64,000 nt of DNA from Opitutia bacterium. GTDB lineage: Bacteria > Verrucomicrobiota > Verrucomicrobiia > Opitutales > UBA953. Both the position numbers and the translations under genes were made by a program. Of this stretch, positions 25,766-53,556 are shown piece by piece (position 1 is the stretch's first letter; every line of letters starts with the position of its first letter). The notes below the pieces were generated by a model. The model made no database searches. It was not told the DNA's origin and saw only the letters and a program-made list of their open reading frames with translations. The stretch spans positions 248,001 through 312,000 of the forward strand of contig CANGFP010000002.1 in NCBI GenBank assembly GCA_947453335.1, written 5' to 3'.

Positions 25766-26362
25766 ATGGTCAAACGCCTCTTCGACATCTGCTTCTCCCT
25801 CGGCTGGCTGATCGTCTTCAGCCCGCTGCTGGCCGTGGTCGCCTTACTGGTGCGCCTGAAGCTCGGCTCACCGGTGCTCTTCCTGCAGGAACGTCCCGGC
25901 CGTGGAGGCCGACCGTTCAGGGTGGTGAAGTTCCGGACGATGACCGACGGGGTGGACGCCACCGGACGGCCTTTGCCCGACGAGGTGCGCCTGACGGCGT
26001 TCGGTCGCTTCCTGCGTTCGACGACCCTCGATGAGTTCCCGCAGATGTGGAACGTGCTCGTCGGCGACATGAGCGTGGTCGGTCCGCGGCCGCTGCTCAT
26101 GCGTTACCTCCCGCGCTACAACGCCTTCCAGGCCCAACGCATGCTGGTGAAGCCCGGCGTCACCGGTTGGGCCCAGGTCAACGGCCGCAACGCGCTCACG
26201 TGGGACGAGAAGTTCGCCCTCGATGTGTGGTACGTGCAGAACCGGAGCCTCTGGCTCGACCTCCGGATCGTCGTGAAGACGTTCTTCGTCGTCTTCGGAC
26301 GCCGCAACGTGAACTCGTCCAACGCCGCGACGATGGAGGAGTTCATGGGCGAAGAGCGGTAG
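25766..26362 (+). CDS. PglC-like undecaprenyl-phosphate sugar phosphotransferase
   Basis: A 198-residue monotopic phosphoglycosyl transferase (bacterial sugar transferase family) that would start glycan assembly by moving sugar-1-phosphate from a UDP-sugar to undecaprenyl phosphate. The N-terminal re-entrant helix (RLFDICFSLGWLIVFSPLLAV) leads into FLQERPGRGGRPFRVVKFRTM, and the catalytic Asp-Glu dyad is in TTLDEFPQMWNVLVGDMSVVGPRP. The small size corresponds to the PglC subgroup (for example diNAcBac-phosphate transfer) rather than the large WbaP/WcaJ type. It is the only initiating transferase in the window, so it likely serves the large operon on the opposite strand. It starts two bases after the DUF4838 gene. 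Confidence 0.9.
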   Translation: MVKRLFDICFSLGWLIVFSPLLAVVALLVRLKLGSPVLFLQERPGRGGRPFRVVKFRTMTDGVDATGRPLPDEVRLTAFGRFLRSTTLDEFPQMWNVLVGDMSVVGPRPLLMRYLPRYNAFQAQRMLVKPGVTGWAQVNGRNALTWDEKFALDVWYVQNRSLWLDLRIVVKTFFVVFGRRNVNSSNAATMEEFMGEER

Positions 26363-29748: not shown

Positions 29749-31196
29749 GGACGGATAGGGGTCTCCCGCGCCTCGCGACGCATGACGTCGAAGAAGATCC
29801 AGGCGGAAACCGCCGCGATGAGGCCGGTGGGGAGCAGGCCGGTGAAATCTCCGGCCGAGGGCGGGACGGCGTATTGCGCCAGCCCGAGGGCGGCCGCTGA
29901 ACCCACCGCCCAGGCGATCGTTTGGCCGCCGAGCCAATGGCCTGTCCGATAGCGCATCACCAAGACCATGAGCACCGCGTAGGCGCAACCTCCGGCCGCG
30001 AAGGCGATGGCCGCCCCGCGCAAGCCGAACGGACCGACCAAGGCGAGCGGCAGCAAGGCCAGGATCAGGTTGGAGATCAGCTCCGCACCGAGCACCAGCC
30101 GCGACGAACCGCGCGCCTGCAGCCAGAAGCCCAGCGGCCAGGAGACCAGCCGCAGGAACACGCCCCAGACCATCCACGGCAGCAGCGGGATCGCGGGGCC
30201 GAAGTTGGCGGAAGCATAGAGCCAATGGATGCAGACCCGCCCCATCGTCAGCAACGCCGCCAGGAACGGCAACGCCAGGAGCAGGCCGGCCTGGATCTGC
30301 TTCTCGACCAGCTGACGCGCCTCCTGCTCGTCCGGAGCCGCGGCCACGCGCGGGAAGAAGTCCGTGGCCATCGCCGCGAAGACGAAGCCCGGCAGGCTGC
30401 TCGCGATCGCCAAGGCCGCCTGATAGTGCCCCGCGGCGACCAGGCCCAGTTCCTGCAGGACGACCATCCGGGCCACGTACTGCGAAAGCTGGAAGAGCAG
30501 CCCCACGACCATCAGCGCGCCACCGAGGTGCAGGAGCTCCTTGACCGCCACGGGGTCGGCGACGACGGCCGGATCGACCGGGCAATGCCTGCGCGCGGCC
30601 CACCAGGACAGCAGCGACGGACTGGCGGTCGCGACGAGGATCCCGAGCGCGACGCCGAAGAGCGAGTGCCCGGCCTGATGGCAGACGTAGATCAACGGCA
30701 GCCCCAGGACGATGCCCGCGAAGGCGGACAGGACCTGCGTGGTGGCCAGGACGCGCAGGTGGCCGCCGGCCTGCAGCAACGCGCCCCACATGCCAGCCGC
30801 GACCAGGAACGGCACCGCGAGTCCGGCCAAACCGAGCTCAAGGATATGGCTCTCTTCGGAGCGGAACGTCCACAGGCCGACGGGCCAGAAGACGACGGCC
30901 ATCGCCAGCAGGCCGAGCCAGCTGAGGCGACGGCCGAGCCAGCGGACGGCCGCCGTCTTCGCCGGCCGTTCCGCGGGCGCGGCGGCGGCGACGAGGCGGA
31001 CCCCGGCGGTGCCTATCCCCCACCCTGCCGCGAGCGCGAAGATAGTGTTGAAGTTGACCAAGGTGCCCGCGAGGCCGACGCCTTCGGGGCCGACCATGAG
31101 CGCGATGGCCTTCGTCCGGAAGAAACCGGCCAGCAGCACCAGGACCGAGGCTCCGCCCATGAGCGCGCTGGAACGAAGGATGCGGGCGAAGGCCAT
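29745..31196 (-). CDS. Wzx-type polysaccharide flippase
   Basis: A 483-residue integral membrane protein with about twelve to fourteen hydrophobic segments, of the MOP superfamily (polysaccharide biosynthesis/Wzx). The N-terminal SSALMGGASVLVLLAGFFRTKAIALMVGPEGVGLAGTL layout (residues about 9-45) is typical of O-antigen/enterobacterial common antigen translocases (WzxE-like). It would flip undecaprenyl-linked repeat units across the inner membrane. It stands between an aminotransferase and a glycosyltransferase gene and is coupled to the latter. It fits a Wzx/Wzy-dependent pathway together with the polymerase-like proteins at 38.7 and 50.9 kb. Confidence 0.85.
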   Translation of the reverse strand: MAFARILRSSALMGGASVLVLLAGFFRTKAIALMVGPEGVGLAGTLVNFNTIFALAAGWGIGTAGVRLVAAAAPAERPAKTAAVRWLGRRLSWLGLLAMAVVFWPVGLWTFRSEESHILELGLAGLAVPFLVAAGMWGALLQAGGHLRVLATTQVLSAFAGIVLGLPLIYVCHQAGHSLFGVALGILVATASPSLLSWWAARRHCPVDPAVVADPVAVKELLHLGGALMVVGLLFQLSQYVARMVVLQELGLVAAGHYQAALAIASSLPGFVFAAMATDFFPRVAAAPDEQEARQLVEKQIQAGLLLALPFLAALLTMGRVCIHWLYASANFGPAIPLLPWMVWGVFLRLVSWPLGFWLQARGSSRLVLGAELISNLILALLPLALVGPFGLRGAAIAFAAGGCAYAVLMVLVMRYRTGHWLGGQTIAWAVGSAAALGLAQYAVPPSAGDFTGLLPTGLIAAVSAWIFFDVMRREARETPIRP

Positions 31197-32333: not shown

Positions 32334-33059
32334 TCATTTCCAAGGTTGGTCCGCATAGATTCCGAGACCCTGCAGGGCCTGCAGGAACTCCCGGTTGGCG
32401 GGGTCGGCGAGGAGCTGGTCTATCGGGAGATTGGAGGAGATGCGGATGAACATCTGCTCGCTCTTCTGGTTCAGGCCATAGGTGCGGATGTCTTTCCAAA
32501 GCAGCGGGAGCCGCTCCAGCCGGCCGACGAGGCCGTCGCGCCAGCCGGCCGCCTGGTCCTCGTAACGGTTGGGCTGGCCGTCGACGAGATGCCAGAAGGC
32601 GACGTTCTGCCGACCGCCCGAGGGCACGAGGTACTGCCCGAACTCGTAGGGCAGCAACGCGCGGCCACCGACCTGCCCGGCGACGGCGTAGCGTCGTTCG
32701 GTGCGCACGCAGCCGCTGTTCACCCAGCAGGAATCCGGATTATGCGAGCCGGCGTCGACGACCGAGGCCTTGCCGGGCTCCCAGTAGGCGGCGTATACGA
32801 GGATGGAGGTCTCGCCGCGCACATAGATGGCTTGGGCCGCCTGGCTGAAGTTGAGGATGCCCTGGACGTTCAGGTTGCCGGCCTTGCTGTCGGCGACGGG
32901 GATGTCTCGACGCGTCCAACCCGCGACGGCGCGCGGCAAGGCGTCCGCGACCTGTCCCGTGAAACGGCGCGGGCGATGCGTGAAACCCTCGGCGGCGAGC
33001 ACGAGCGCCAGCAACAGCGCCAACAGGACGGATCCGGCGATGAGCAGCCCTTTGCGCAT
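32334..33059 (-). CDS. epsI: EpsI / exosortase-associated protein (DUF3485-like)
   Basis: A 241-residue exported protein with one N-terminal membrane helix (LLIAGSVLLALLLALVLAAEG) and a periplasmic domain with the EpsI hallmarks: a short LPRAVAGWT segment, VYAAYWEPGK, then HNPDSCWVNSGC in the place of the conserved His/Cys/Gly-Trp region, and SIL/FWHLVDG strands. EpsI-type proteins accompany exosortases in exopolysaccharide loci, as separate proteins or as C-terminal domains of the exosortase. No exosortase or PEP-CTERM protein is in the window. It overlaps the PglD-like gene by one base (TGATG). The family call is from pattern, not alignment. Confidence 0.75.
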   Translation of the reverse strand: MRKGLLIAGSVLLALLLALVLAAEGFTHRPRRFTGQVADALPRAVAGWTRRDIPVADSKAGNLNVQGILNFSQAAQAIYVRGETSILVYAAYWEPGKASVVDAGSHNPDSCWVNSGCVRTERRYAVAGQVGGRALLPYEFGQYLVPSGGRQNVAFWHLVDGQPNRYEDQAAGWRDGLVGRLERLPLLWKDIRTYGLNQKSEQMFIRISSNLPIDQLLADPANREFLQALQGLGIYADQPWK

Positions 33060-33685
33060 CAGAGCACGCGGGCAGGATTGCCCACGACGGTGACGTCCGC
33101 CGGGACGTCGTTGATGACGACGGCGCCCGCACCGAGCACGGAACGGCTGCCGATGGATTTGCCGGGGATGACCGAGGCTTGGCTCCCCATGAAGACTCGG
33201 TCCGCGACCTGGACGCGGCCGGTCACGTCGCAATGGGCGCTGAGCGTCGACCATGCGCCGACGGAGGCGTCATGCCCGACCGTGGCGTGCAGGTTCAGCA
33301 TCACGAAATCCCCCAGGACGATGTCGGCGCTCGCGATCGCCCCAGGGCAGAGCACCACGCCGCGGCCCAGCTTGACGCGGTCGCCCACCAGCGCGCGCGG
33401 ATGGATGAAGGTGAGGAACTCGGCGCCGGCGTCGAGCAGCGGACGCAGGAGCTTCTCCTTCACGGGCGGCAGCCCCAAGCCGCAGAGGTAGAGCGCGCCG
33501 GGATCGACCGCATGCCCGGTCAGGGGCGCGATCGGCGCGAAATCCCCGAAGGCGCGCAAGGCCTGCGCGTTGTCGTCGAGGAAGCCGGCGACCTGCCAGG
33601 CGCGGCCATGGTCAGGGTGCTGGCGCGCCCAGACATGCATCTCGCGGCCGAAGCCACCGGCTCCGACGATCCATAGTTTCTTCAT
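33059..33685 (-). CDS. PglD/NeuD-type hexapeptide-repeat sugar acyltransferase
   Basis: A 208-residue left-handed beta-helix acyltransferase. The N-terminal Rossmann-like sugar-binding part (LWIVGAGGFGREMHVWARQ) and the C-terminal hexapeptide repeats (VLGDFVMLNLHATVGHDASVG and on, with the catalytic His in this segment) are diagnostic of the PglD/NeuD family, which N- or O-acetylates nucleotide sugars using acetyl-CoA. It follows the small ACP gene by an ATGA overlap and is close to the aminotransferase at 31.2 kb. Because of the ACP/KASIII neighbours, the donor could be an acyl-ACP rather than acetyl-CoA; that is an inference. Confidence 0.85.
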   Translation of the reverse strand: MKKLWIVGAGGFGREMHVWARQHPDHGRAWQVAGFLDDNAQALRAFGDFAPIAPLTGHAVDPGALYLCGLGLPPVKEKLLRPLLDAGAEFLTFIHPRALVGDRVKLGRGVVLCPGAIASADIVLGDFVMLNLHATVGHDASVGAWSTLSAHCDVTGRVQVADRVFMGSQASVIPGKSIGSRSVLGAGAVVINDVPADVTVVGNPARVL

Positions 33686-33906
33686 GGGGTTTCAGGGATA
33701 AGGGAAAGGAGGTCGCCGACGGTCGCGCACGCGCGCACCTGGGCGCTCGTGACCGTCAGGCCATGCTTGGTCTCGCAATGCAGGATGACGAGGAGCACGG
33801 CCAAGGAGCCCCACCCCGGCAAGGCCTCGAGGCGGGTGGACGTCGTCGCACCCGCGAAGAGGTCGACGTCGGCCTGCAAGGCCGCGAGTCGCGAGGGGCT
33901 GCTCAT
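33682..33906 (-). CDS. Acyl carrier protein-like protein with GWGSL motif
   Basis: A 74-residue protein with ACP size and helix layout. The phosphopantetheine site reads LPGWGSLAVLL with Ser34; carrier proteins of sugar-modification loci usually read GWDSL, so the Asp before the serine is replaced by Gly. Whether a holo-ACP synthase still recognises it is uncertain. It is translationally coupled on both sides (ATGA with the KASIII upstream and with the PglD-like gene downstream), strong evidence that the three work together. The upstream in-frame extension is a shadow of the KASIII gene. Confidence 0.7.
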   Translation of the reverse strand: MSSPSRLAALQADVDLFAGATTSTRLEALPGWGSLAVLLVILHCETKHGLTVTSAQVRACATVGDLLSLIPETP

Positions 33907-34979
33907 GCTTGGCGGGGGAAGGGCTGCACCGGGGCGACGACGAGCGGACCGAACTCGCCGGCGACGGCGCCCCAGGACCAGCCGACGCCGAATCCGCACA
34001 GCGCGAGCCGCAACGGACCAACGGCGAGCCGCTCGCCGTACGCTTCGGTCAGCGCGCAGGGAATCGAGGCGGAGCTCTGGTTGCCGAAACGTTCGGCGAT
34101 GCCGTCAGGGGTCTTCTCGGGAGGGAAGCCGCACTTGCGGCCCACCGCGGAGACGACGAAGCGGTTGGCTTGGTGCAGCACGAGGCCATCGGTCGTGGCG
34201 GCGGCGTAGCCGGCATGACGGAGCACGGAGGCGACGGCGGCGGGCACCTCCCGCAGCGTGAAGTTGAACACTTCCCCTCCCTGCATCGCGAGGTTCTCCG
34301 CATGGCGGCCGTTCCCGTCGAAATCCGGCACGACGGTCAGGGGCCGGCTTCCCGCCGGCGCGCGCGCGCCGCCTTGGGGGACGATGATCGCGCCGGCGCC
34401 GGAACCGTCCGCGCCCAGTTCGAAATGCCAGGGAGCGGCGCCGCCGGTGCGTTCGATGAGCGCCGCCGAGCCCGCGTCGCCGAACAGCGGGTCGGTGGAG
34501 CGGTCCTGCGGGTGCGTCAGCCGGGAAAGCGTGTCCCCCGCGCAGAGCAGGACGCGTCCAGCCCCGCCATGGGCGCAGAGCAAAGCCGCCTGGTGCAGGC
34601 CGTAGACCCATCCCGAGCACCCCAAGGAAAGGTCGAACGCCGCGACGCCCTTGGCGAGGCCGAGGCGTGCTTGGAGGAACGAGGCGTTGTTCGGCTGCGG
34701 ATGGTCCGGGGTCTGCGTGACGAAGATCACGGCGTCGACGGAGGAAGCGTCGAGGCCGGCCGCGGCGAACAGGCGGCGGGCGGCGTCCTCGCAGAGGTCC
34801 AAGGCGGTCACTCCGGGAGCCGCGACGCGACGCTCGCGGAGGCCGACGGTCTGGGCGGTCCGCTCCAGCACGGCACGGTCGAGGCCATGCGCGAGGCCTT
34901 CGGCGAGGTAGTCGCGGACCACCGACCCGGTGGAGACGGCGAGGCCCGCGAGACGGACATTGGCAAGGGAGCTATGCAT
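33903..34979 (-). CDS. 3-oxoacyl-ACP synthase III (FabH-like KASIII)
   Basis: A 358-residue thiolase-fold condensing enzyme with the complete KASIII triad: Cys121 (LSLGCSGW), His269 (LHQANRF) and Asn300 (FGNQSS). FabH-like enzymes join an acyl-CoA starter to malonyl-ACP. It lies between asnB and a dedicated ACP gene within a glycan operon, not with other fatty-acid genes, so it is unlikely to be the housekeeping FabH. The start at 34979 begins at the first conserved strand. Together with the ACP, SDR and AMP-ligase genes it could make a short 3-oxo- or 3-hydroxyacyl group. Confidence 0.88.
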   Translation of the reverse strand: MHSSLANVRLAGLAVSTGSVVRDYLAEGLAHGLDRAVLERTAQTVGLRERRVAAPGVTALDLCEDAARRLFAAAGLDASSVDAVIFVTQTPDHPQPNNASFLQARLGLAKGVAAFDLSLGCSGWVYGLHQAALLCAHGGAGRVLLCAGDTLSRLTHPQDRSTDPLFGDAGSAALIERTGGAAPWHFELGADGSGAGAIIVPQGGARAPAGSRPLTVVPDFDGNGRHAENLAMQGGEVFNFTLREVPAAVASVLRHAGYAAATTDGLVLHQANRFVVSAVGRKCGFPPEKTPDGIAERFGNQSSASIPCALTEAYGERLAVGPLRLALCGFGVGWSWGAVAGEFGPLVVAPVQPFPRQA

Positions 34980-34987
34980 CGGAAAGT

Positions 34988-36889
34988 TCAGCGGCCGGCG
35001 AACTGGCGGAGCCACGACTCGACGCACAGCACGCCGAGCAGCGAATAGGCGGCGTCGACCTCGCCGCGGCGATCGGCCTCAAGCAGACGGAGGACGCCGG
35101 CCCCGTCGAAGACGCCGGTGGCGTCCAAGCGGCCGGAGGCGGCCAAGCGGCGAAGCTGCGGCGCGTAGATTTCGTGGAAGAGCCCGCGCAACGGCAGGCC
35201 GAACCCGGATTTGGGCCGGTCGAGGACGTCATCCGGGACGATGCCGCGGAGCGCCTGGCGGAAGAGATGCTTGGCTTCGCCGCCGCGGATGCGCTGGTCG
35301 TCCTTCAGGCGCTCGGCGAAGGCCGCGAGGTCCGGATCGAGCAGCGGGACGCGGATCTCCACACCGCAGGCCATGCCCATCTTGTCCTTGTAGTTGAGGT
35401 TATGGCTGGCGAGGAAGTAGCTGCGGTCGAGATGCAGCATGCGGCTCAGGCGAGTCACGCCGTCGGGCAGCCGCGCCATGGAGGCGACCAGCAGATCCGC
35501 AGGCTTATGGACGCCAAGCTGCTCCCGGAAGCCGGAGGAAAGCATCGGTCGCATCGTCTCGTCGTTCAGCCAGAGGAAATAGCCGGCCAGGCGGGCATCG
35601 GGTTCCTCATCCGCATGCGCGAAGAGCTTTGCGAGACGTCGGGACAGCGGGTCGGCGGCGGATCGGCCCGAGGACCATCGGCGCAGGCCGGCGCGCAGCG
35701 GCCGAGGCCACCAGCCCCAATAGCGTTCGGAGCGCAGCGCCAGGTGCCGACGGTATCCGCTGAACAGGTCGTCTCCCCCCGCGCCGGACAGCAGGACCTT
35801 CACGCCATGCTCACGCGCATGGCGGCTGATGGCATAGGTCATGAACGCGGCCGGATCCGGCGTCGGCTCATCGAGCATCCAGACGAGTCGGTCCACGTCA
35901 TGGATGGCGGCCGATTCGCGGGTGACGGCATACAGAGGCACGCCGAGGTGCTCGGCCGCCCGGTGAGCGTAAGGATGGTCGTCGACGAAGCCTTCTTGGC
36001 CCATTTTCGCGCCGGCCGAGGAAGCCACGGTGAAGCAGGGGTATTTGCGGCCATCGCGGAGGGCGCTGACCGCGAACGCCGCCAGCGCCGTCGAGTCGAC
36101 CCCGCCGGACAGGAATCCGCCGACCGGGACATCGGCGACGAGCTGGCGATCGACGGCTTGCCGGAGATAGGAACGGCAAGCCGTGACGGCGTCATCCATG
36201 CCGAGGTCGTGAGGCATCTGCTCGTTAGGCAGCGCCGCGAAGCGCGCAATCCTCGGAGTGACGCCATCGCGCCACTCCATCCATTCGCCTGGCTGCAGCT
36301 TGCGCACGCCACGCGCAGGCGTGAGGTCGCCGGGCGCATAGAGGAGCGACAGGTAGGCCGAGATCGCCACGGGGTCGGGGCTCCAGTCGACGCCGTGGAC
36401 TGGCTTGAGCGCCTTGAGCTCGGACGCGAAGGCCAGGCCGTCCGAGCCACTGGCCCAGTAAAGAGGCTTCACGCCCGCGGCGTCCCGCGCAAGGAGCAGC
36501 CGACGTTCCGCGGGGAACCACGCCGCGAAGGCGAAGATGCCGTTCAGCCAAGGCAGGCACTTTTCGCCGTGGCGGGCGAGGAGCTCGACCAGGACTTCCG
36601 TATCGCTGTGCCCGCGGAAGACGGCGCCGGCTTCTTCGAGCCGACGCCGGAGCTCGCGGAAATTGTAGATCTCGCCGTTGAAGGTGAGCACGACACGCCG
36701 GTCGGCCGACGCCATCGGCTGCGCACCTGCGGGAGACAGGTCCAGGATCGCCAGCCGCGCATGGGCGAGCCCGACGCGGCCTTCCGACCACGCGCCCTGG
36801 CCGTCGGGCCCGCGGTGCGAGATGGCCGCGGCCATCTCGTGGAGCAAGGGGGCCGCATGACCACCCAGGTATCCGGCGATGCCGCACAT
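34988..36889 (-). CDS. asnB: Asparagine synthetase B-type glutamine amidotransferase
   Basis: A 633-residue class II amidotransferase. The N-terminal nucleophile is Cys2 (MCGIAGYLGG), SHRGPDG and FNGEIYNF form the glutaminase site, and the C-terminal synthetase domain has the P-loop FLSGGVDSTAL. AsnB-like enzymes within O-antigen loci (for example WbpS of Pseudomonas aeruginosa O6) are thought to convert a sugar carboxylate to its amide. With WecC and Ugd making uronic acids in the same operon, sugar-uronamide formation is a reasonable role, alongside plain asparagine synthesis. It begins one base after the preceding glycosyltransferase stop. Confidence 0.9.
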   Translation of the reverse strand: MCGIAGYLGGHAAPLLHEMAAAISHRGPDGQGAWSEGRVGLAHARLAILDLSPAGAQPMASADRRVVLTFNGEIYNFRELRRRLEEAGAVFRGHSDTEVLVELLARHGEKCLPWLNGIFAFAAWFPAERRLLLARDAAGVKPLYWASGSDGLAFASELKALKPVHGVDWSPDPVAISAYLSLLYAPGDLTPARGVRKLQPGEWMEWRDGVTPRIARFAALPNEQMPHDLGMDDAVTACRSYLRQAVDRQLVADVPVGGFLSGGVDSTALAAFAVSALRDGRKYPCFTVASSAGAKMGQEGFVDDHPYAHRAAEHLGVPLYAVTRESAAIHDVDRLVWMLDEPTPDPAAFMTYAISRHAREHGVKVLLSGAGGDDLFSGYRRHLALRSERYWGWWPRPLRAGLRRWSSGRSAADPLSRRLAKLFAHADEEPDARLAGYFLWLNDETMRPMLSSGFREQLGVHKPADLLVASMARLPDGVTRLSRMLHLDRSYFLASHNLNYKDKMGMACGVEIRVPLLDPDLAAFAERLKDDQRIRGGEAKHLFRQALRGIVPDDVLDRPKSGFGLPLRGLFHEIYAPQLRRLAASGRLDATGVFDGAGVLRLLEADRRGEVDAAYSLLGVLCVESWLRQFAGR

Positions 36890-36890
36890 G

Positions 36891-37907
36891 TCAGGGACGC
36901 GCCTCCTTGAACGGCATGCCGTCCGCCAACCATGCGATGAGGTCGGGCAGGCGATCGACGACCTTGTCGACCGAAGCCGGTCCGGGCCGACCGGAACATC
37001 GCTCGACCTGTTCGGCGATGGCTTCCGCGGAAAGCGGATCGAAGACCAGATGCGGCTCGATCACGGCGTGCGCGTAAGGCCGGTCGGCGGCCAGGACGGC
37101 GCAACCGGCGTCAGCGGCCTCCAACAGACCCAACCCGAAGCTCTCGACCAGCGAAGGATAGAGCTGGTAACCGCATCGCGCGTAGATGGGCGCCGGGTCC
37201 GCGAAGCCGTGGTTGGTGACGTCGGCGCCGTCGCGGCGCAAGGCCGCGATCTCCGCAAGCACGCGCGGGTAGGCCGAGGTGACGGTCAGGTGCAGCCCCG
37301 GCCGGAGGCCGCGAGCCAACAGAAGGCGCCATGCCTGGAACAAGGTCGCGTGGTTCTTGTGCGGGTGGGCTTCGGCCACGTAGGCGAACTGGTCCCAGCG
37401 GCGGGAGGAATCGGGACGGAGGACTGCGCGCGGCAAGGCGAAGAACGGAAGTTCGGCGATCCGGGCGGAAGGCAGTTGGTTGCGCAGCGCCGTCGTCATG
37501 TTGGCGGACTGCACGAGGAACCAATCCGAGTTGGCGGCGTAATGCCGGATGTACGCCATCTTGAACGCGAGGTCCGTCCGTTCCCGCCAGGACTGCCCGG
37601 GGAAACGCTCGCAAAGAAGGAGGTTGTGGAAATACGTCGCGGTCGGGACGGCCAGCCTGCGCAGCGGCGGCACGTTGCCGAAGCACAGGACCCGCGAGAA
37701 ACCGGACGCGTGGTCCCGGTAGAAACGGCGCCGCGCCCAGTGACTCGGAGCCGCGTCGACGACGCGGAAGCCGGTCGTGTCGAGATCCGTGACGCGCACG
37801 TCGCGCAGCACCGTCGCGTCGGCGCGACCACGCAGTGCGCCCAGCAGACGGCGAAGCAGGCCGATGCCGCCGCCGACGTTGACGTAGGTAGCGTCGATGA
37901 GGATCAT
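36891..37907 (-). CDS. Family 4-like glycosyltransferase
   Basis: A 338-residue GT-B protein. The C-terminal half shows the GT4 donor site: QFAYVAEAHPHKNHATLFQAW, then YPSLVESFGLGLLEAADAG with the Glu-x7-Glu arrangement. The N-terminal part (MILIDATYVNVGGGIGLLRRLL) has the glycine-rich acceptor loop. The ATG at 37907 overlaps the upstream GT2 stop (ATGA). No signal peptide or anchor. Donor and acceptor unknown. Confidence 0.82.
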   Translation of the reverse strand: MILIDATYVNVGGGIGLLRRLLGALRGRADATVLRDVRVTDLDTTGFRVVDAAPSHWARRRFYRDHASGFSRVLCFGNVPPLRRLAVPTATYFHNLLLCERFPGQSWRERTDLAFKMAYIRHYAANSDWFLVQSANMTTALRNQLPSARIAELPFFALPRAVLRPDSSRRWDQFAYVAEAHPHKNHATLFQAWRLLLARGLRPGLHLTVTSAYPRVLAEIAALRRDGADVTNHGFADPAPIYARCGYQLYPSLVESFGLGLLEAADAGCAVLAADRPYAHAVIEPHLVFDPLSAEAIAEQVERCSGRPGPASVDKVVDRLPDLIAWLADGMPFKEARP

Positions 37908-38743
37908 GTTCCGCAGGTCAGCCGGGCCAAGGGTCGTCCGCGATGGCGACGGGTATCCGTCCACGCGGCGAAGGCGCTGCCGTCGGCCAGCTTGAGGGCC
38001 GCCGAGAGGAACCGGGCCCACCACGACAGGCGGTAGCCCAGTCGGTCGTAGAGGGCGGCGACCTCGGCTTGGATCTCGTGGGCGCGCGGGTTGACGTATG
38101 CCGAGAACTGGTCGGCCGTCTTGGACTGCTCGTGCATCCGGAAGGCCCAGCAGTAGTGGGCGAAGCGGCGCGGGTAATGCCCCCGCGCCATGAACCGCAG
38201 CCACAGGTCGATATCCATCGCGTACCGGAGGTCCGGCGAGAATCCCCCGACCGACCGGAAGAGTTCGGCGGAGAAGAAGCTGCTTGGCCCGCAGACGGTG
38301 ATGGGCGCATCGGGGCGACGGAGCCAAGCAGGCTGGTCGGTCGGTCCACGGAAGCAGGCGAGGACGTCGAGGGCGGCGGTCGTGCGCACGAAGTCGCCGG
38401 AGGCCCAGGCGTGTCGCCCGTCGGCGAGCGCCGCCTTGGCCGCAGCGAGCGTGCCGGGAAGCAGGATATCGTCGGCGTTGAGCCAGACGAAATAACAGCC
38501 GCGGGCGCGGGCGAAGCCCTTGTTGAAGGCGTCGCTTTGGCCGCGGTCGGGTTCGCTCACCCACCACGCCAGCCGCGGCGCGTACTCCTTCAGGATCCCG
38601 ACGGTCCCGTCCGTGCTCCCGCCGTCGACGACGATGAGCTCGAAGTCCTGGCAAGACTGCCCTAGGACCGAATCCAGCGCCGTGCGCAGGAACCGTCCGT
38701 AGTTATAGCTGGCGATGACGACGGTGAAGCAAGGTGCGTCCAT
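37904..38743 (-). CDS. Family 2 glycosyltransferase
   Basis: A 279-residue GT2 enzyme: FTVVIASYNYGRFLRTALDSVL, VVDGGSTDGTV for the nucleotide, and VWLNADDILLP supplying the metal-binding acidic pair. MDIDLWLRFMARG fits the base-containing ED-x-L region of GT2 enzymes. Its 5' end overlaps the polymerase-like gene by 41 bases, unusually long for this operon, and its 3' end overlaps the following GT4 by four. Confidence 0.87.
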   Translation of the reverse strand: MDAPCFTVVIASYNYGRFLRTALDSVLGQSCQDFELIVVDGGSTDGTVGILKEYAPRLAWWVSEPDRGQSDAFNKGFARARGCYFVWLNADDILLPGTLAAAKAALADGRHAWASGDFVRTTAALDVLACFRGPTDQPAWLRRPDAPITVCGPSSFFSAELFRSVGGFSPDLRYAMDIDLWLRFMARGHYPRRFAHYCWAFRMHEQSKTADQFSAYVNPRAHEIQAEVAALYDRLGYRLSWWARFLSAALKLADGSAFAAWTDTRRHRGRPLARLTCGT

Positions 38744-39998
38744 CGGAGGGCGGGTTGAGGGTGGCCGCGGCCGCGGTTTCGGCGAAGGCGCGGAAGTTGA
38801 ACAGGATGAAGAGGGCGAGGCCGATGACCACGTAGGTGGAGGCGAGCCAGCCGCCGGAGATCGAGTAGACCAAGGCGTAGTTGAACGGAACCAGGATCAC
38901 GGCCTTCTGGTCGACCTCGCCGGGCGCGAAGAACACGCGGGCGGCGGCGTAGAGCAGCGCCAGCCAGATCAGCACCGTCAGCACGACGCCGAGCTTCAGC
39001 ACCGGCGTCAGCGTGCTGTAGTGGAGCCCTGTGGTGATGACCTTCATCGGCGCGCCGGTGTCCGGGTCGTACCCGTTCATCAGGAAGCCGGTGCCCAGGC
39101 CGTTGCCGAGCACCCACCCACGCGGGGTCATCTGGTCGCGGAACTCGTCGAACTCCTCGTTGCGGCCCGTGGAGTCGGCGATGCTTTCGATGCCGCGCGC
39201 GTCGGTGATCGAATCCAACATGTAGTACCCGCCCAGGCCCATGAGCGGAAGGACCATGAAGAGCCACACGGTGAAACCGGTGGCGAAGGATCCCATCGCG
39301 CGCCGCAGCAGGAGGAGCAGGAGCTGGCCGAAGAGCAGGAAGAAGGCGATGGCGATGGACCGGGTGAGCGTGAAGTAGGCGACGAGGCCGACCATGCCCA
39401 CCGAGAGCACCGGCAGGAGCAGGCCGAGCCGGAAGACGACCTGCAACGGCACCAGGAAGAGCAGCGGGCCGATGACGTAGAAGAGGCTGATGCTGACGAC
39501 GCGGTTGCTGGCGTCGGCGTCGATCTGCACGTAACCGAAGCGCATGAGCAGGATGTTCGCGGCGCCCATCAGCACGCAGCACCAGGAGACCCGTGAGACG
39601 AGCGTGCGCAGGGATTCGAACGAGGCCTCGCCCAGCTTCAGGCCGAAGGCCACCGACAGGAAGAGCAGGCCGTCGAGGATGAGCTCGCGCCAGCCGAGCG
39701 GCCAGGCGTTCTCCCCGTTGCGGGTCAGGTACGTGACGGCGAAGCCGTAGACCATCAGGGCGAGGGCCCACTTGGAGGTGCCGCGCCAAGCGCTCCGGAG
39801 GAAGAGGTACGGCACCGCCACCAGCAGCATGATCGCGCCGAAGACGACGTCTCCGTAGTACGGCAGGACGGCCTTCACCCATTGCGTCGGCATCGTGAGG
39901 ATGACGTACGCCGCGGCCAGGACCCAGGTCGTCACGACGCCGACGGGTACGAGCTTGCGCGCGGTGGGCGGGACGGACGGCGGGGGCGGCGGGCGCAT
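38703..39998 (-). CDS. O-antigen polymerase-like membrane protein (Wzy candidate)
   Basis: A 431-residue protein with about ten to eleven hydrophobic segments and one large hydrophilic loop (residues about 255-330, DSITDARGIESIADSTGRNEE onward), the layout of Wzy/WaaL proteins. The loop segment TPRGWVLGNGLGTG followed by GLHYS resembles the conserved G-x-G-x-G...H region of the O-antigen ligase/polymerase family. It would polymerise the repeat units flipped by the Wzx-like protein. A second protein of the same general type is at 50.9 kb, so which is polymerase and which ligase is open. Confidence 0.75.
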   Translation of the reverse strand: MRPPPPPSVPPTARKLVPVGVVTTWVLAAAYVILTMPTQWVKAVLPYYGDVVFGAIMLLVAVPYLFLRSAWRGTSKWALALMVYGFAVTYLTRNGENAWPLGWRELILDGLLFLSVAFGLKLGEASFESLRTLVSRVSWCCVLMGAANILLMRFGYVQIDADASNRVVSISLFYVIGPLLFLVPLQVVFRLGLLLPVLSVGMVGLVAYFTLTRSIAIAFFLLFGQLLLLLLRRAMGSFATGFTVWLFMVLPLMGLGGYYMLDSITDARGIESIADSTGRNEEFDEFRDQMTPRGWVLGNGLGTGFLMNGYDPDTGAPMKVITTGLHYSTLTPVLKLGVVLTVLIWLALLYAAARVFFAPGEVDQKAVILVPFNYALVYSISGGWLASTYVVIGLALFILFNFRAFAETAAAATLNPPSDGRTLLHRRHRQL

Positions 39999-40001
39999 GG
40001 G

Positions 40002-40874
40002 TCAGAAGGTTCGGCCGAGCACGGTGACGGCGGGGGCGGTGCGGAGGCGCTCCTCGAGGAACGGCAGGTCGCGGCAATAGAGGGTGTTGTGCGGACCTGG
40101 ACGGTCCAGGGGGAGCAGGCGCCGCGCGAACGGGTCGTAGGCGCAGGCACGGAAGCCCGCCGCCAGCAGTTCGTCGTGCAGCGCGAGTTCGTCGTAGCCG
40201 TAGCCCCGGCCGAGGCCGTTGAGCTCCACGATGAGCGCGCGCAAGGCCGGGTCCGCCAACAGGCGGCGCGCCCCACGGAAGACCTCGGTCTCGAAACCTT
40301 CGACATCGACCTTCAGCAGCAGCGGCGTCTCCGCGAGGTCGGCGTCCAACGTGACCACGGGCACCTCGATCCCGGCCGGCTCGCCCGGCAAGGCCACATG
40401 GTTCATCGCGTCCAGGCCCTGGCTCATGCGCAGGACGCCGGGCGCGGCGCCGACCGCGGCGGCGACGAGACGGGAGCGGGCGTCGGCGGCCGCGTTGAGG
40501 GCGAGGTTGTCGCGCAGCAGGGCGAAGGTCGCGGGGACCGGCTCGTAGCTGACGGTGCGGGCCCCGCGCGCGCCGCGCGCGAGGACGGTGTAGCTGCCCA
40601 GGTTGGCGCCGACGTCGGCGAAGAGGTCGTCCGGGCGGAGCAGATGCAGCAGGAAGGCCATGTCCTCGAACTCGTGCAGGCCGGCGTAGTAGTTGCCGGT
40701 GAGTCCGCCCCAACCGGAACGCAGCCAGAGCTTCGCGCCGCCGACCCACGCGTACCGCCGACGGCCGGGCCGCAGACGCGACGCGCACTGCCACCAGAGG
40801 AACCGCGGGAACGCGATCCAGGGCCGGCCGCGCAACAGCGGATGCCCGAGGAGGAAGCGCAAGGTGGGGTGCAT
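40002..40874 (-). CDS. FkbM family methyltransferase
   Basis: A 290-residue SAM-dependent methyltransferase. DDLFADVGANLGSYTVLA gives the SAM-binding motif I, VSYEPVPATFALL motif II and PLLLKVDVEGFETEVFRGA the characteristic FkbM segment near the C-terminal third. FkbM-type enzymes O-methylate sugars in many surface polysaccharides. It lies between the polymerase-like gene and the AMP-ligase gene, each two to three bases away. It probably methylates a residue of the same glycan. Confidence 0.87.
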   Translation of the reverse strand: MHPTLRFLLGHPLLRGRPWIAFPRFLWWQCASRLRPGRRRYAWVGGAKLWLRSGWGGLTGNYYAGLHEFEDMAFLLHLLRPDDLFADVGANLGSYTVLARGARGARTVSYEPVPATFALLRDNLALNAAADARSRLVAAAVGAAPGVLRMSQGLDAMNHVALPGEPAGIEVPVVTLDADLAETPLLLKVDVEGFETEVFRGARRLLADPALRALIVELNGLGRGYGYDELALHDELLAAGFRACAYDPFARRLLPLDRPGPHNTLYCRDLPFLEERLRTAPAVTVLGRTF

Positions 40875-40876
40875 CT

Positions 40877-42220
40877 TCAGCGGGTCTTCTTGAGGCGAGG
40901 CCCGCCCACGGCGTCGACGAACAGCACGCGCGTCGGGACCTTGTGGGCCGCGAGCGCCCGGCGGCAGGCCGCGCGGATCGACGCGCGCAGGGCTTCCTGA
41001 TCCGCGGCGGGCGCGGCGACGACGTCCGCCACGACGGCCTGGCCGATGAGCGCGTGCGCCTCTCCGCGGACGCGGCAATCCACGACCGCCGGGACGCCGA
41101 GGATGACGGCTTCGACCTCCGCCGGCATCAGCTTCTCGCCGCCGACGTTGATGGCCTCGCCGAGGCGTCCGAGGATGCGCAGCGTGCCGTCGGGCCCGAG
41201 CTCGACCTTGTCGCCGGTCCGGAACCAACCGTCGGCGGTGAACCTGTCCGCGCCCTCCTGCGGATTGAGGTAGCCGTCGATCTGCGTGCGGCTGCGGAGC
41301 CAGAGTTCCGCGTCGACGACCTTCCACTCGAGGAGGGGGTCGGCGAAGCGGATGAAGGTCGACGAGGCGTCAGGGCTCTCCGTGCGGGCGATGCCGGTCT
41401 CGCTCGTCCCGAAGGTCTGGATGAAGCGGACGGCCGGAAAGGCGCGGCGCAGACGCCCAAGCAACCCCTCGGGCATCGGTTCGGTGCCGTAGGTGATGAC
41501 GCGCAAGGCGCCAAGGTCGCGCGTGCCTGCCTCACCCGAAGCGAGCAGGAGGTTGAGGAACGTCGGGGACGCGGGCAGCACCGCCACGCGATGGCGAGCC
41601 ATCGCCGCCGCCACGACGGGCGGGGAGCGGTCCGCCGGGACGACCAAGGTGGACCCGGCCGCCAAGGTCGCGAACAAGGTGTTCAGGCCGCCGATGTGGT
41701 CGAAGCCGAGCAGGGCCAGGACGGGGAGCCGGTTCGGGCGGCGGCCGGCGAAGGTGTCGAGCAACACGGTCAGGTCCTGCACCATGGCCTTGGGCCGGCC
41801 GCTCGTGCCGCTCGAGAAAAGCACGAGTCCGGCATGCCCGCGCTCCCGCAGACGCAGGAAGGCCGGATGCACGGACGGCTCCGACATCCGCGGCAGGAGC
41901 TTCCAGCCGAAGCCGGCGACGGTGACGATCCATTGCGCACCGACCTCCGCGAGCTTGCCAGGGTGCTCGGCGAGGTTGCCGGCCAAGGGCGCCACCGCAT
42001 GCCCCTCCGCGGCCAAGGCGAACAGCCAGGCCACCGCCGCTGGCTCGTGTTCGCCGACGAGGGCGAAGACACTGGGGCCATCCAAGGCCAAGGCGCGGAT
42101 GTCGGCGCGCGCCGCCGCGGTCAGGCGTCCCAGTTCCGCATACGTGCAATCGCCCCACGGGCCGCGCAGCGCGAAACCGGCGGCACGCTCCTCAAGGCGC
42201 TGGACGAACCAATCGGACAT
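40877..42220 (-). CDS. AMP-dependent acyl ligase (ANL superfamily)
   Basis: A 447-residue adenylate-forming enzyme, shorter than full acyl-CoA synthetases. The phosphate loop is LVLFSSGTSGRPKAM, followed by FGTSETG, DGWFRTGDKVEL and a C-terminal GEAINVGGEKLMPAEVE hinge; the last catalytic Lys would be among LKKTR at the very C-terminus. Such enzymes activate a carboxylic acid as its adenylate and load it on CoA or on a carrier protein. It overlaps the SDR gene by one base (TGATG), and an ACP gene is two genes upstream, so loading of that carrier is likely. Substrate unknown. Confidence 0.87.
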   Translation of the reverse strand: MSDWFVQRLEERAAGFALRGPWGDCTYAELGRLTAAARADIRALALDGPSVFALVGEHEPAAVAWLFALAAEGHAVAPLAGNLAEHPGKLAEVGAQWIVTVAGFGWKLLPRMSEPSVHPAFLRLRERGHAGLVLFSSGTSGRPKAMVQDLTVLLDTFAGRRPNRLPVLALLGFDHIGGLNTLFATLAAGSTLVVPADRSPPVVAAAMARHRVAVLPASPTFLNLLLASGEAGTRDLGALRVITYGTEPMPEGLLGRLRRAFPAVRFIQTFGTSETGIARTESPDASSTFIRFADPLLEWKVVDAELWLRSRTQIDGYLNPQEGADRFTADGWFRTGDKVELGPDGTLRILGRLGEAINVGGEKLMPAEVEAVILGVPAVVDCRVRGEAHALIGQAVVADVVAAPAADQEALRASIRAACRRALAAHKVPTRVLFVDAVGGPRLKKTR

Positions 42221-42912
42221 CAGCCTAGTCGGGCAAGGTAACGAACCGTCCCGGTGGAGGATGGGGCGCCACCCCATTCTTCGGCCACGAAACCGACGGC
42301 TTCCGCGAGCGTCGTGCCGGACGGACGGCCGATGCGGACGTTCAACGCGGCGAGCTGGTCACGGCCGACCGCGCGCGTGAGGTCCGTGTCGACCGGGCCG
42401 AGGCCGACGGCGACGACGCGGACGCCATGCGGCTGGAGCTCGTTGGCGGCGACCTTGGTCAGGGCCTCGACGGCGGCCTTGCTCGCGACGTAGGCGGCTT
42501 CGCCCGAAAGGGCCAGCGGCACGGCGACGGAGGTAAGGTTGACGATCGTTCCGGCGCGCTGCCGCACCATGGCCTTGCCCACGGCCTGAAGGCAGTGGAA
42601 CGCGCCGAGATAGTTCACGCGCATGAGCATCTCCGCCTTCTTCGCGGGCGTCAGGAGCAGGGAATTCATGGAAGCGGCGCCGGCGTTGTTGACGAGCAGG
42701 TCGACGCGTCCGGAGGTCTCCAAGACCGCGGCCACCGCGGCCTGCACGGCGGCCTCGTCGCCGACATCGACGGCATGGGCGCGGAAGGCGGGATGCGCCA
42801 AGGCCTGGGGACCGCGCGCGAAGCCATGCACGGTCCAGCCGTCGCCCAGGAGGCTTTCGGCGAGGGCTCGGCCGAGGCCGCGCGAGGTTCCGGTGACAAG
42901 GGCGATGCGCAT
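42220..42912 (-). CDS. Short-chain dehydrogenase (FabG-like ketoreductase)
   Basis: A 230-residue classical SDR: cofactor motif VTGTSRGLGRAL at 6-17, NNAGAAS, and the catalytic region with AAYVASKAAVEAL (Tyr-x3-Lys), typical of 3-oxoacyl-ACP reductases and related enzymes. Situated between a carrier-protein gene (four bases upstream) and the AMP-ligase gene (one-base overlap). In that context reduction of a 3-oxoacyl-ACP made by the KASIII to a 3-hydroxyacyl group is the simplest role; a sugar oxidoreductase role cannot be excluded. Confidence 0.85.
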   Translation of the reverse strand: MRIALVTGTSRGLGRALAESLLGDGWTVHGFARGPQALAHPAFRAHAVDVGDEAAVQAAVAAVLETSGRVDLLVNNAGAASMNSLLLTPAKKAEMLMRVNYLGAFHCLQAVGKAMVRQRAGTIVNLTSVAVPLALSGEAAYVASKAAVEALTKVAANELQPHGVRVVAVGLGPVDTDLTRAVGRDQLAALNVRIGRPSGTTLAEAVGFVAEEWGGAPSSTGTVRYLARLG

Positions 42913-42916
42913 GGGT

Positions 42917-43228
42917 TCAGGCTTGGGCGGCGGCGACGAGCTCGACGAGATGGTCGGCCAGCAGGCCGACGCGGCGGAAGGGAGAGGTCAGGCGGCTCAT
43001 CGCGCGCTCGTCCGCGATGACGATCCGCACGCCGCACGCGCGATGGATGTCCTCCTCGAGGTCGGACATCAACGTGACGAGCCCGATGCTGTCGAGATGG
43101 GAGGCCTCCCCGAAAAGCCGCGTCTGCTCATCGGCCTGGGCCAAGGCGGGCTTGCCGAGTTCCGCGCCCAAACGGGCGAGGCGGAGCAGGATGAGCCGGA
43201 CGGCGGCTTCGCGGTTGAAGACGGACAT
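42917..43228 (-). CDS. Acyl carrier protein
   Basis: A 103-residue carrier protein. The phosphopantetheine attachment site is LDSIGLVTLM with Ser47, followed by an acidic helix II/III (SDLEEDIHRACG). It is longer than FabF-cluster ACPs because of an N-terminal helix of about 25 residues and a C-terminal tail. It is located with an SDR and an AMP-ligase gene on one side and a glycosyltransferase gene two bases away on the other. It is distinct from the short, atypical carrier at 33.7 kb. Confidence 0.82.
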   Translation of the reverse strand: MSVFNREAAVRLILLRLARLGAELGKPALAQADEQTRLFGEASHLDSIGLVTLMSDLEEDIHRACGVRIVIADERAMSRLTSPFRRVGLLADHLVELVAAAQA

Positions 43229-45629: not shown

Positions 45630-47558
45630 TCAGAGAGGGATGGCGGCGCCGTCGACGACGACGGCGGCGGGACGCAGCTCGACGCGGCAACCCAAGGCGG
45701 TGACGAAGATCACGTCCGCGCCGCGGACGGCGAGGCGGCGAGTCCATGCGGCCTGACGGCGCCCGTAGCCGTCGGCGCGGAAGCCTTCGCCGGTGGAGGC
45801 CTCGCCCGTGAGCCAGGTTTCCTCGGCGGTTTCGGAACAGGCCAGTGAAAGCTGCTCCAGGCCGGCGCGGGTCCGGCCATGCCAACGGAGCTCGCATGAC
45901 GCGTCGGCGCGCGGAGTGCGCACGCGGTCGACGACGACGAAGCCTTGCGGGAAGCGCAGGACCCGGCGCGTCCACTCGGCTCCGCCAAGGAGGGCCAGGC
46001 GGGCGCGGAAACCGGCCGGCTCGGGCTCGCGCGCGCACGTCGCCCAAGGCGACCAGAGGAACCGGCCGACCTTGCGCATCGCGCCGCGCCGGTCGACGGT
46101 GACGCCGTTGTGGTGGAGCGCCGACCCGAAGTCGTCGGCGCCGACGCCGCGATAGGAGAACGTGCCGCAGTCCTCGGCGATCCACTCGCCGTCCCAACGG
46201 AGGGAGACCTGGAGCTGGTCGGCGTGGCTCGGACGGGCGGACCAGCAGGTGGGGGCGCGGAAGAAGGCGACGCCGCGGAGATTGCGCAGCAACCCGACGC
46301 CGGCACGCGGGCGATCCACCTTGGAAGACCTTCCCGCGCGCCGCGCGGTGACCGGCATCGGCCCCAGCAGGAGCAGGGCGGCCTCGTCCCATGGCCCGGC
46401 CGGCAGGCGTTCGCCGAGGAACAAGGCCTGGGCGGCGCCGAGGGCCGGACGGAAGTCGTCCGCGGGCAGGCCGCTCAACGGGCAAAGATCGGCGCTGTCG
46501 TCGGCGCCATAGCGCGGCACCGTGCCGTCCGTCTCCATGAGTTCGCCCAGGAACTCCGTGGCGAGGCAGACCTGGTCGCGCGCGTGCGGAGGCAGGCGTT
46601 CGCCTTCGGAACGCAGCACGACCTCCGCCCAGGTCATGAGCTGCAGGAACAGGCGGTGGTAGTTCGTCGAATGCTGGCTGAAGCCGCCGTCGGCGTCGAC
46701 AAGGTCGTCGACCTGCGGGAACAGCGACTCGAGGCCTTGGTCGCGCCAACCCGCCGCGTCCGCGAGGTGCGGCCAGAGGGCGCCCGCCGTGTAGAGGCCG
46801 ATGGCTTCGGCGACGCCGTGGTTGTTGCGCTGCGAACGGGCGTAGGAAAGGTGCGCGGAGATGCGGGCGGCGGTCGCGCCCGCGAAGCGAGCCGCCGCCA
46901 GGACGCGCGCATCGGTGGTCGCCGGATGGTCGCGGAAGGCCTGCAGCGCGTAGGCCACGGCGATGAGCCGGATCGACGCTTCCTGGCCGCACATCCATTG
47001 CGGGCCGCGGTTGGGCGGGTTGGCCGCCAGCCAATCCTCGAAGAGGAACCAGAAGCGCTCGACATGGCGCGCCTCACCGTCGAGGACCCAGGCGCGCACG
47101 AGCGGATAGACCCAGGCGAAGCGGGACAGCTCCCACACGCCCTTGATGTCGACCGCGCCGGCGTCCGACAGCCTAGTCCAATGGACGTCCGCGCGGACGC
47201 TTTGCCCGTCGAGGACACTCGCCGACCAACGCGGACGGACGCCGGCGTCGACGAGGTCGCGGTTGAAGACGCGGAAGCGGCCATGCGCCAAGAGGTCCGC
47301 ATCCGCGACCGGCGAACGTCCGGTCGCAAGGGACCAGACGTCGAGGTGCGGCGCCAGGTAGGCGCGGTCGATCCTGGCGATGGGCAAACGCGGCGAGGTC
47401 CGACGCCAGCGCGAAGCGCAATCAGGCGGGACGGGGACGTCGGCCCAGGCCTGGAGCGGACAACGGCGTTCGAGCAGGCCGAACGCGCGTTCGGCCCGGA
47501 ACCAGAGACGCCGGGCGACCCAGGCGGGGCCGAGATGCATAAGGGCGGAGAGGTACAC
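45630..47558 (-). CDS. Heparinase II/III-fold protein
   Basis: A 642-residue protein with an N-terminal alpha/alpha-toroid (residues about 80-370; SRFAWVYPLVRAWVL, GQEASIRLIAVAYAL, RNNHGVAEAIGLYTAGA) and a C-terminal beta-sandwich (from about 400; HADQLQVSLRWDGEWIAEDCGTFSY), the layout of heparinase II/III polysaccharide lyases. The HADQL-type segment and RNNHG contain the catalytic His/Asn candidates. There is no signal peptide, so it may act in the cytosol or on the pathway rather than as a secreted lyase. Such proteins recur with wecB, wecC and WbuB-like genes in surface polysaccharide loci, where their task is unsettled. GTG start at 47558; an ATG six codons later is possible. Confidence 0.82.
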   Translation of the reverse strand: MYLSALMHLGPAWVARRLWFRAERAFGLLERRCPLQAWADVPVPPDCASRWRRTSPRLPIARIDRAYLAPHLDVWSLATGRSPVADADLLAHGRFRVFNRDLVDAGVRPRWSASVLDGQSVRADVHWTRLSDAGAVDIKGVWELSRFAWVYPLVRAWVLDGEARHVERFWFLFEDWLAANPPNRGPQWMCGQEASIRLIAVAYALQAFRDHPATTDARVLAAARFAGATAARISAHLSYARSQRNNHGVAEAIGLYTAGALWPHLADAAGWRDQGLESLFPQVDDLVDADGGFSQHSTNYHRLFLQLMTWAEVVLRSEGERLPPHARDQVCLATEFLGELMETDGTVPRYGADDSADLCPLSGLPADDFRPALGAAQALFLGERLPAGPWDEAALLLLGPMPVTARRAGRSSKVDRPRAGVGLLRNLRGVAFFRAPTCWSARPSHADQLQVSLRWDGEWIAEDCGTFSYRGVGADDFGSALHHNGVTVDRRGAMRKVGRFLWSPWATCAREPEPAGFRARLALLGGAEWTRRVLRFPQGFVVVDRVRTPRADASCELRWHGRTRAGLEQLSLACSETAEETWLTGEASTGEGFRADGYGRRQAAWTRRLAVRGADVIFVTALGCRVELRPAAVVVDGAAIPL

Positions 47559-50859: not shown

Positions 50860-50869
50860 CAGGGGACGT

Positions 50870-53523: not shown

Positions 53524-53556
53524 GAAGGTTGGAGGCGGGGCGGAAAGGACGGCGCC

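Follow-up and report, generated by a model that had tools for sequence, protein, structure and literature searches.

Two linked acyl-building gene sets in a polysaccharide operon of an Opitutia bacterium and their predicted part in N-acylation of an amino sugar

Why does a polysaccharide operon carry two acyl carrier proteins (ACPs), a condensing enzyme, and an acyl-activating ligase, and do these genes serve one pathway? The question arises from a 64,000-nucleotide stretch of an Opitutia bacterium genome (G000:C2:248001-312000), hereafter the window, taken from an assembly of 1.13 Mb that is 63% complete. Two gene sets are concerned. One is a trio encoding a carrier protein (ACP2), a short-chain dehydrogenase/reductase (SDR), and an AMP-forming ligase; the other encodes a β-ketoacyl-ACP synthase III (KASIII), a second carrier protein (ACP1), and a NeuD/PglD-type sugar N-acyltransferase (NeuD). 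A sequence-only reading of the window had proposed that they form a single route to a 3-hydroxyacyl sugar amide, and the seven genes it named, their couplings, and their place in one minus-strand polysaccharide operon were borne out when open reading frames (ORFs), motifs, and overlaps were read. Gene order and co-occurrence in relatives indicate that the two halves belong together. It is probable, though well short of certain, that they jointly build a short, likely hydroxylated chain for the UDP-4-amino sugar of a surface polysaccharide.

Linkage of the two halves

The minus-strand genes encode, in order, a family 4 glycosyltransferase (GT4), ACP2, the SDR, the ligase, an FkbM methyltransferase, a membrane protein, a family 2 glycosyltransferase (GT2), another GT4, an AsnB-like protein, KASIII, ACP1, NeuD, a DUF3485/EpsI-like protein, a DegT aminotransferase (AT), and Wzx. 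Read directly in the sequence, ATGA overlaps couple KASIII to ACP1 and ACP1 to NeuD, the latter being the link between a PglD-like acyltransferase and the first ACP that had been claimed, and TGATG overlaps couple the SDR to the ligase and NeuD to EpsI. The earlier reading missed the EpsI gene and was silent on the five genes from FkbM to AsnB, a spacer that places the ligase 5.9 kb from KASIII.

A contig scan with a 20-sequence KASIII alignment yielded 33 loci, comprising L002-L030 and L034 of the window kind and three from Brevundimonas (L031), a Veillonellaceae metagenome-assembled genome (MAG) (L032), and a Succinivibrionaceae MAG (L033). The KASIII relatives are Opitutae, Opitutus, Opitutales, or Verrucomicrobiota records, with L026 labelled just "bacterium". 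Gene content of the 29 loci L002-L030 was read by tblastn with 30 window proteins. All 13 loci with at least 9.5 kb of upstream sequence carried ACP2, SDR, and ligase genes upstream of KASIII; the remaining 16 extend less far upstream, and four of these still show the ligase or the full trio. Spacer genes varied and acyl genes were constant. L017 and L019 have no genes between the halves, the AsnB-like one included.

Whole-genome counts were made for 141 genomes of the class and 372 of the order (locus and genome sets overlap, L020 being G098, L017 G359, and L019 G363, and their counts were never summed). In the class, KASIII (E ≤ 1e-60) occurred in nine genomes, the ligase (E ≤ 1e-30) in nine, and both in six. 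In the order, KASIII (E ≤ 1e-50) occurred in 126, the ligase in 93, and both in 73. KASIII scored at least 250 bits in 94 of the 372 genomes, and 72 of these 94 had the ligase, versus 21 of the 278 remaining genomes (Fisher 9e-38, uncorrected for kinship); the 32 genomes with a weaker KAS (<250 bits) supply just one of the 73 having both. Ligase and KASIII lay at most 10 kb apart in 41 of the 73 genomes holding both at E ≤ 1e-50. They were divergent in three and on the same strand in 38, always with the ligase upstream, and these 38 genomes span six families (f1, f2, f4, f5, f55, and f65). The arrangement thus recurs in relatives far above chance.

Alternative arrangements were surveyed in 113 stretches picked from matches (a non-random sample) and read with profiles built from relatives. 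The order ACP2–SDR–ligase–KASIII–ACP1–SDR–NeuD was found in L066, L073, L182-L187, and L189. L190 has the same order of trio, KASIII, ACP1, and NeuD without the second SDR, and L188 ends after ACP1. A second SDR between ACP1 and NeuD is present in some other families (L066, L069-L071, and L073). KASIII, ACP, SDR, and NeuD occur without the trio in L063, L077, and L084, and in L158 a KAS of the KAS-a kind (see below) accompanies ACP–SDR–NeuD–EpsI–AT–phosphoglycosyl transferase. Such varied neighbor sets suggest a shared acceptor block fed by different supply lines. Separately, a Rhizobium plasmid (L217, NZ_CP148093.1) carries genes for an ACP2-like protein, an SDR, a trio-type ligase, and a NeuD-like protein, followed by a gene annotated as a CmlS-type halogenase.

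Several of these observations weigh against one joint acyl line. Among the 73 genomes that have both ligase and KASIII, 32 do not show them within 10 kb, in some cases through contig breaks. The ligase is missing at E ≤ 1e-50 from 22 of the 94 KASIII genomes, in which another ligase-like gene (profile built from L062, L079, and L033) stands beside a KASIII from the same branch (L062, L079, L145, L146, and L150), contigs are cut, or neither applies (L147 and L149). L053 and L080-L083 have the trio and no KASIII, with the trio in some cases beside acyltransferases of other folds, namely a hexapeptide-repeat protein (L080), a GNAT (L081), and, preceding the trio, an MBOAT (L053); in L159 and L215 it is combined with other KAS arrangements. 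The window has no second SDR between ACP1 and NeuD, and its KASIII side has no reductase of its own. The sequence-only reading had suggested co-occurrence in related genomes as its test and named independent occurrence as its refutation: the halves do co-occur and adjoin, and each is also found alone. Since trio and KASIII also occur apart, they are better described as modules than as an obligate unit.

An operon with two independent acyl supplies, in which the trio and KASIII–ACP1–NeuD serve different acyltransferases or sugars, would account for the solitary halves and for family f2, where they are unlinked in 24 of the 37 genomes with both and the trio often adjoins a phosphoglycosyl transferase. 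We regard this as improbable, given the same-strand order in six families and the trio-only loci L082 and L083. In these two loci the trio directly precedes the same kind of NeuD, with EpsI (on the opposite strand in L083) and an aminotransferase. Moreover, a Pfam scan of 40 window ORFs revealed no second sugar N-acyltransferase.

Predicted enzymes and carrier proteins

The KASIII triad Cys121/His269/Asn300 (numbering from the ATG at 34979) is complete, as had been stated, and is invariant in the 20-sequence alignment; across the loci, Cys is conserved in 29/30, His in 30/30, and Asn in 29/29. In a tree of 42 rows chosen from 111, the KASIIIs of the window and of other trio genomes fall in a branch (support 100/99) that holds one KAS, termed KAS-b, of three two-KAS loci (Brevundimonas L031, Veillonellaceae MAG L032, and G139, which is L064). 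The partner, KAS-a, falls outside, and a single clade of all six KAS was rejected (AU test p 1.5e-5). FabH of relatives is separate from the branch (100/100). The partner KAS of L172 belongs to a third branch. No second KAS was found among the window ORFs scanned with Pfam, and the window's own genome, at 63% completeness, shows this KASIII and one FabH.

For the trio, ACP2 keeps Ser47 in 16/16 loci sequences and in 21/21 of a further set in which the DS motif is invariant. Its AlphaFold model (pLDDT 86) has the ACP helix pattern, with one helix beginning at Ser47. A Foldseek search of the PDB with this model placed the carrier protein MacpD (6tg5) on top, at probability 1.00 but E 0.058, and other ACPs matched too; a profile search was weak, its best hit (E 0.013) being a chain other than MacpD. 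ACP2 is thus predicted to be a carrier protein from its DS motif and modeled fold. In the SDR, Tyr141 and Lys145 are kept in 35/35 and residue 128 is Ser or Thr. Core adenylation motif residues of the ligase are conserved in nearly all of 19 sequences.

The ligase tree joined 20 trio rows with ligases of pTML1, Bradyrhizobium, Burkholderia, and Rhizobium loci in one clade (100/99). The comparison set consisted of two other ligases and 16 further AMP-binding rows drawn from four relatives, and 18 of 60 rows had been removed beforehand (rows on long branches, near-duplicates, and two that proved to be trio copies); a quick tree of all 60 gave the same grouping (support 98). pTML1 is the thiomarinol plasmid of Pseudoalteromonas SANK 73390, and its ligase is, by position, presumably TmlQ. 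TmlQ uses succinyl-CoA. The Bradyrhizobium and Burkholderia ligases come from two plasmid loci of ligase–SDR–ACP–polyketide synthase type. Likeness to a MupQ/TmlQ-type ligase runs through the pTML1 protein. Membership of the trio SDR in the MupS/TmlS clade was considered and rejected: in a quick tree, trio SDRs and the Rhizobium SDR form one clade (100) apart from FabG-like SDRs, and TmlS and the Bradyrhizobium, Burkholderia, and Azospirillum SDRs form a separate one (99).

ACP1 had no Pfam match at 1e-3, PP-binding appearing at E 0.1, and a 17-row ACP1 profile (including three carrier proteins of other loci) found PDB ACPs, at best with E 1.1e-6. Ser34 is kept in 26/26. Both carrier proteins are divergent in sequence. 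NeuD passes the cut-off of TIGR03570, the NeuD/PglB/VioB sugar acyltransferase family (175 versus 160.8 bits), and keeps His138 in 26/26. EpsI follows it in all 25 of the loci L002-L030 that have NeuD, the four others ending at a contig edge; the EpsI-like protein is a close companion of the acyl genes. Its motif HNPDSCW is invariant in 18 sequences, and its model (pLDDT 74) shows a single N-terminal helix followed by a beta domain. Two markers of the XrtA/PEP-CTERM exopolysaccharide system were looked for. The exosortase family PF09721 had no match in the window's genome (63% complete) and was present in all 11 other genomes checked, sharing a contig with the acyl genes only in G219 and G154, more than 100 kb away, in fragmented assemblies. 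The AsnB-like gene was considered as an XrtA amidotransferase (TIGR03108) and lies below the cut-off (395.7 versus 816.9 bits).

The DegT aminotransferase is predicted from sequence to make the 4-amino sugar. It falls below the TIGR04181 (LegC) cut-off (364 versus 420 bits), has 1o61 and perosamine synthetase 3bn1 as PDB relatives, and keeps Lys189, which from its motif we take to be the pyridoxal phosphate lysine, in 21/21. A dehydratase assigned by family only (PF02719, 649-aa frame) is encoded elsewhere in the genome, at G000:C1:39133, and such a gene adjoins the cassette in G418. Between EpsI and the aminotransferase, relatives carry antisense ORFs that the window lacks (L002 12713-13156, L007 12714-13109, L029 4466-4861, L008 12717-13142, L014 12702-13127, and L010 6094-6516); they look like four-helix bundles and, in our estimation, resemble S23-like proteins.

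At the level of single proteins, too, some findings tell against the joint line. The Asp of the DSL motif is missing from ACP1, which has GSL in the window and eight relatives, and ACP1 was not found in L016. ACP2 had no Pfam match even at E 10. With the SDR outside the TmlS clade, reduction of the starter need not be the MupS reaction. Finally, in the two-KAS loci L033, L084, and L159 both KAS lie within the KAS-b branch, which limits any replacement of KAS-a; judging from the tree, the trio occupies its place in three loci only.

Proposed pathway and known systems

In the O-polysaccharide of Flavobacterium psychrophilum, a 3,5-dihydroxyhexanoyl amide on Qui2NAc4N was established by nuclear magnetic resonance; wfpC and wfpE are assigned by the authors as KAS genes, wfpD as that of an ACP, wfpF of a reductase, and wfpG of a PglD homologue, and transfer from ACP to the amine is predicted (PMC6519341). 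The route that the sequence-only reading drew from KASIII, ACP, reductase, and acyltransferase to a hydroxyacyl sugar amide accordingly has a published parallel, and its general mechanism had been proposed in 2019 (PMC6519341). Compared by description, the likeness extends to a KAS, an ACP, a ketoreductase, a PglD-type transferase, and a PglE-type aminotransferase in a Wzx/Wzy locus (wfpC-wfpG with pglE/pglF), and to predicted transfer from ACP to a UDP-4-amino sugar (PMC6519341). The window holds the triad-bearing KAS, ACP, SDR, and PglD-type transferase together; PglE and PglF are matched by family only, through the DegT aminotransferase and the PF02719 frame elsewhere in the genome. F. psychrophilum differs in having two KAS and one ACP (PMC6519341); the window has a single KAS and two ACPs, plus a ligase and an EpsI-like gene. 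Brevundimonas L031 (AT–KAS–ACP–KAS–SDR–NeuD) has the same gene set as wfpC–G, and the same order if wfp letter order is taken to be gene order.

This precedent, the ACP1/NeuD gene overlap, and the conserved neighborhood make it very improbable that NeuD simply N-acetylates from acetyl-CoA while the acyl genes supply a lipid or some other product, even though acetyltransferases are among its nearest PDB relatives, which include VioB (7txp) and perosamine N-acetyltransferase.

The trio resembles a set in mupirocin biosynthesis, in which malonyl-CoA is converted by MupQ, MupS, and MacpD to 3-hydroxypropionyl-MacpD. The ketosynthase (KS) MmpF, whose gene lies directly downstream, then joins this starter to malonyl-MacpA by condensation; with a ketoreductase this gives 3,5-dihydroxypentanoyl-ACP (PMC10098928). 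Shared with the mupirocin/thiomarinol starter cassette are the pTML1-clade ligase, an SDR, and a dedicated ACP, with a condensing enzyme and a further ACP close by (PMC10098928). The window differs in its SDR of another clade, in a KASIII rather than a KS-AT, and in its predicted product, a sugar amide rather than an antibiotic side chain. The SDR, previously assigned to the KASIII product, may on this comparison act on the starter instead, given the ligase clade and the MupQ/MupS/MacpD system (PMC10098928). A MupQ-like hydroxylated starter is a tentative proposal by analogy, as the ligase clade fits and the SDR clade does not.

Under the joint line, ACP2 would receive a small acyl unit from the ligase, and reduction of that unit by the SDR would give a hydroxyacyl starter, as in the MupQ/MupS/MacpD system. 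KASIII would extend this starter by two carbons drawn from malonyl-ACP1, and the same or another SDR would reduce the 3-keto group. The NeuD-type enzyme would then transfer the chain from ACP1 to an amine placed on the sugar by the aminotransferase, acting on the product of a PglF-like dehydratase; later steps would fall to a phosphoglycosyl transferase and to Wzx and Wzy-type proteins. The acyl group need not be plain 3-hydroxyacyl, as formerly supposed: by analogy, the amide could be 3,5-dihydroxypentanoyl or 3,6-dihydroxyhexanoyl, or 3,5-dihydroxyhexanoyl if the starter were 3-hydroxybutyryl. Sugars bearing 4-hydroxybutyramido and 3-hydroxybutyramido groups are known (PMC3210612).

Alternatively, the ligase might load a free short hydroxy acid (3-hydroxybutyrate or dihydroxybutyrate) onto ACP2, leaving the SDR to serve the KASIII product. 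A precedent is RfbL of the V. cholerae O1 antigen, to which activation of 2,4-dihydroxybutanoate and its attachment to CoA or RfbK are ascribed (PMC12208996), and the intact adenylation motifs, the unlikeness of the trio SDR to TmlS, and the lack of a second SDR between ACP1 and NeuD agree with this reading. We nevertheless find it unlikely: the ligase lies in the pTML1 clade, whose mupirocin counterpart starts from malonyl-CoA (PMC10098928), and the SDR is retained in the trio loci L082 and L083, which lack KASIII.

Flagellin islands hold comparable sets. In Aeromonas group II, orf1-3 encode an ACP, a 3-oxoacyl-ACP reductase, and an AMP-dependent synthetase, alongside luxE/luxC (PMC7874193); by description this resembles the trio, and for these and the enterobacterial islands luxE/luxC are present and no KASIII is named in the parts of the sources at hand (PMC7874193, PMC4875605). 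Flagellin of A. piscicola AH-3, whose island has the ACP, reductase, and AMP synthetase genes, bears an unexplained 102-Da glycan moiety (PMC7874193); by our arithmetic, a dihydroxybutanoyl residue would match this mass. On an Azospirillum ramasamyi plasmid (L220, NZ_CP029830.1 220133-233011), genes for an ACP, an AMP-binding protein, an SDR, and KASIII stand in a row directly before flagellin, with pseI nearby. This stretch shows no NeuD or EpsI match, its ligase is divergent (long branch), and its SDR is in the TmlS group; it is an independent ligase–SDR–KASIII set at a flagellin locus.

Genes of the operon and their significance

Coordinates are collected in Table 1. The window DNA has a GC content of 65-72%. 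In several relatives, the Bac_transf phosphoglycosyl transferase adjoins ACP2. Within the operon, a heparinase II/III-like protein is encoded at 45630-47558, beside UDP-GlcNAc 2-epimerase and UDP-ManNAc dehydrogenase genes. A single 697-aa frame (48796-50889) joins zinc-dehydrogenase and Gfo/Idh/MocA domains. Upstream of the operon, 52549-56896 holds SIS/CBS (KdsD-like), CMP-sugar cytidylyltransferase, epimerase, GDP-mannose-dehydratase, and CTP_transf_like genes.

Table 1. Features of the window discussed in the text, with positions, strand, and basis of assignment
Feature	Position	Strand	Basis
ACP2, carrier protein of the starter-loading trio, 103 aa, motif LDSIGLV	42917-43228	-	invariant Ser47; AlphaFold model; Foldseek
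SDR reductase of the trio, 230 aa	42220-42912	-	adh_short 1.7e-45
AMP-forming ligase of the trio, 447 aa	40877-42220	-	AMP-binding 2.5e-27
FkbM-family methyltransferase between the halves	40002-40874	-	
AsnB-like amidotransferase, directly upstream of KASIII	34988-36889	-	Asn_synthase 7e-80
KASIII, KAS-b branch, 358 aa, Cys121/His269/Asn300	33903-34979	-	
ACP1, 74 aa, motif WGSLA, coupled to KASIII and NeuD	33682-33906	-	Ser34; profile search
NeuD/PglD-type hexapeptide-repeat N-acyltransferase, 208 aa	33059-33685	-	TIGR03570
DUF3485/EpsI-like protein	32334-33059	-	DUF3485 8.1e-8 on longer frame 32334-33254
LegC/PglE-like DegT aminotransferase, 374 aa	31203-32327	-	DegT 1.4e-98
Wzx-type flippase, downstream	29745-31196	-	Polysacc_synt 7e-13
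Bac_transf initiating phosphoglycosyl transferase	25766-26362	+	5.3e-64

New here is a loader trio with a ligase of the thiomarinol-plasmid clade and an ACP whose model is closest to MacpD, a set that combines two known kinds of system; no description of this combination was recognized among the papers listed in searches of an open-licence library. We also put forward, more speculatively than the starter itself, that priming cassettes of the mupirocin/thiomarinol kind may serve bacterial glycan loci generally as modules for acyl supply. The omega-hydroxyacyl starter from ACP2, SDR, and ligase might be handed straight to NeuD, other hexapeptide proteins, GNAT, or MBOAT. In the window, it might instead be extended once by KASIII on a second ACP to give a dihydroxyacyl sugar amide, in a two-carrier mini-polyketide line that replaces the first KAS of the Flavobacterium-type pathway. 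If so, antibiotic starter chemistry would be tied to surface polysaccharides, unusual N-acyl amino sugars would gain a proposed acyl donor, and a two-ACP mini-synthase with parts exchanged among loci would come into view. Flagellin and polysaccharide islands carry ACP–reductase–AMP-ligase genes that have lacked an explanation, and these could then be tested as a source of hydroxyacyl-ACP.

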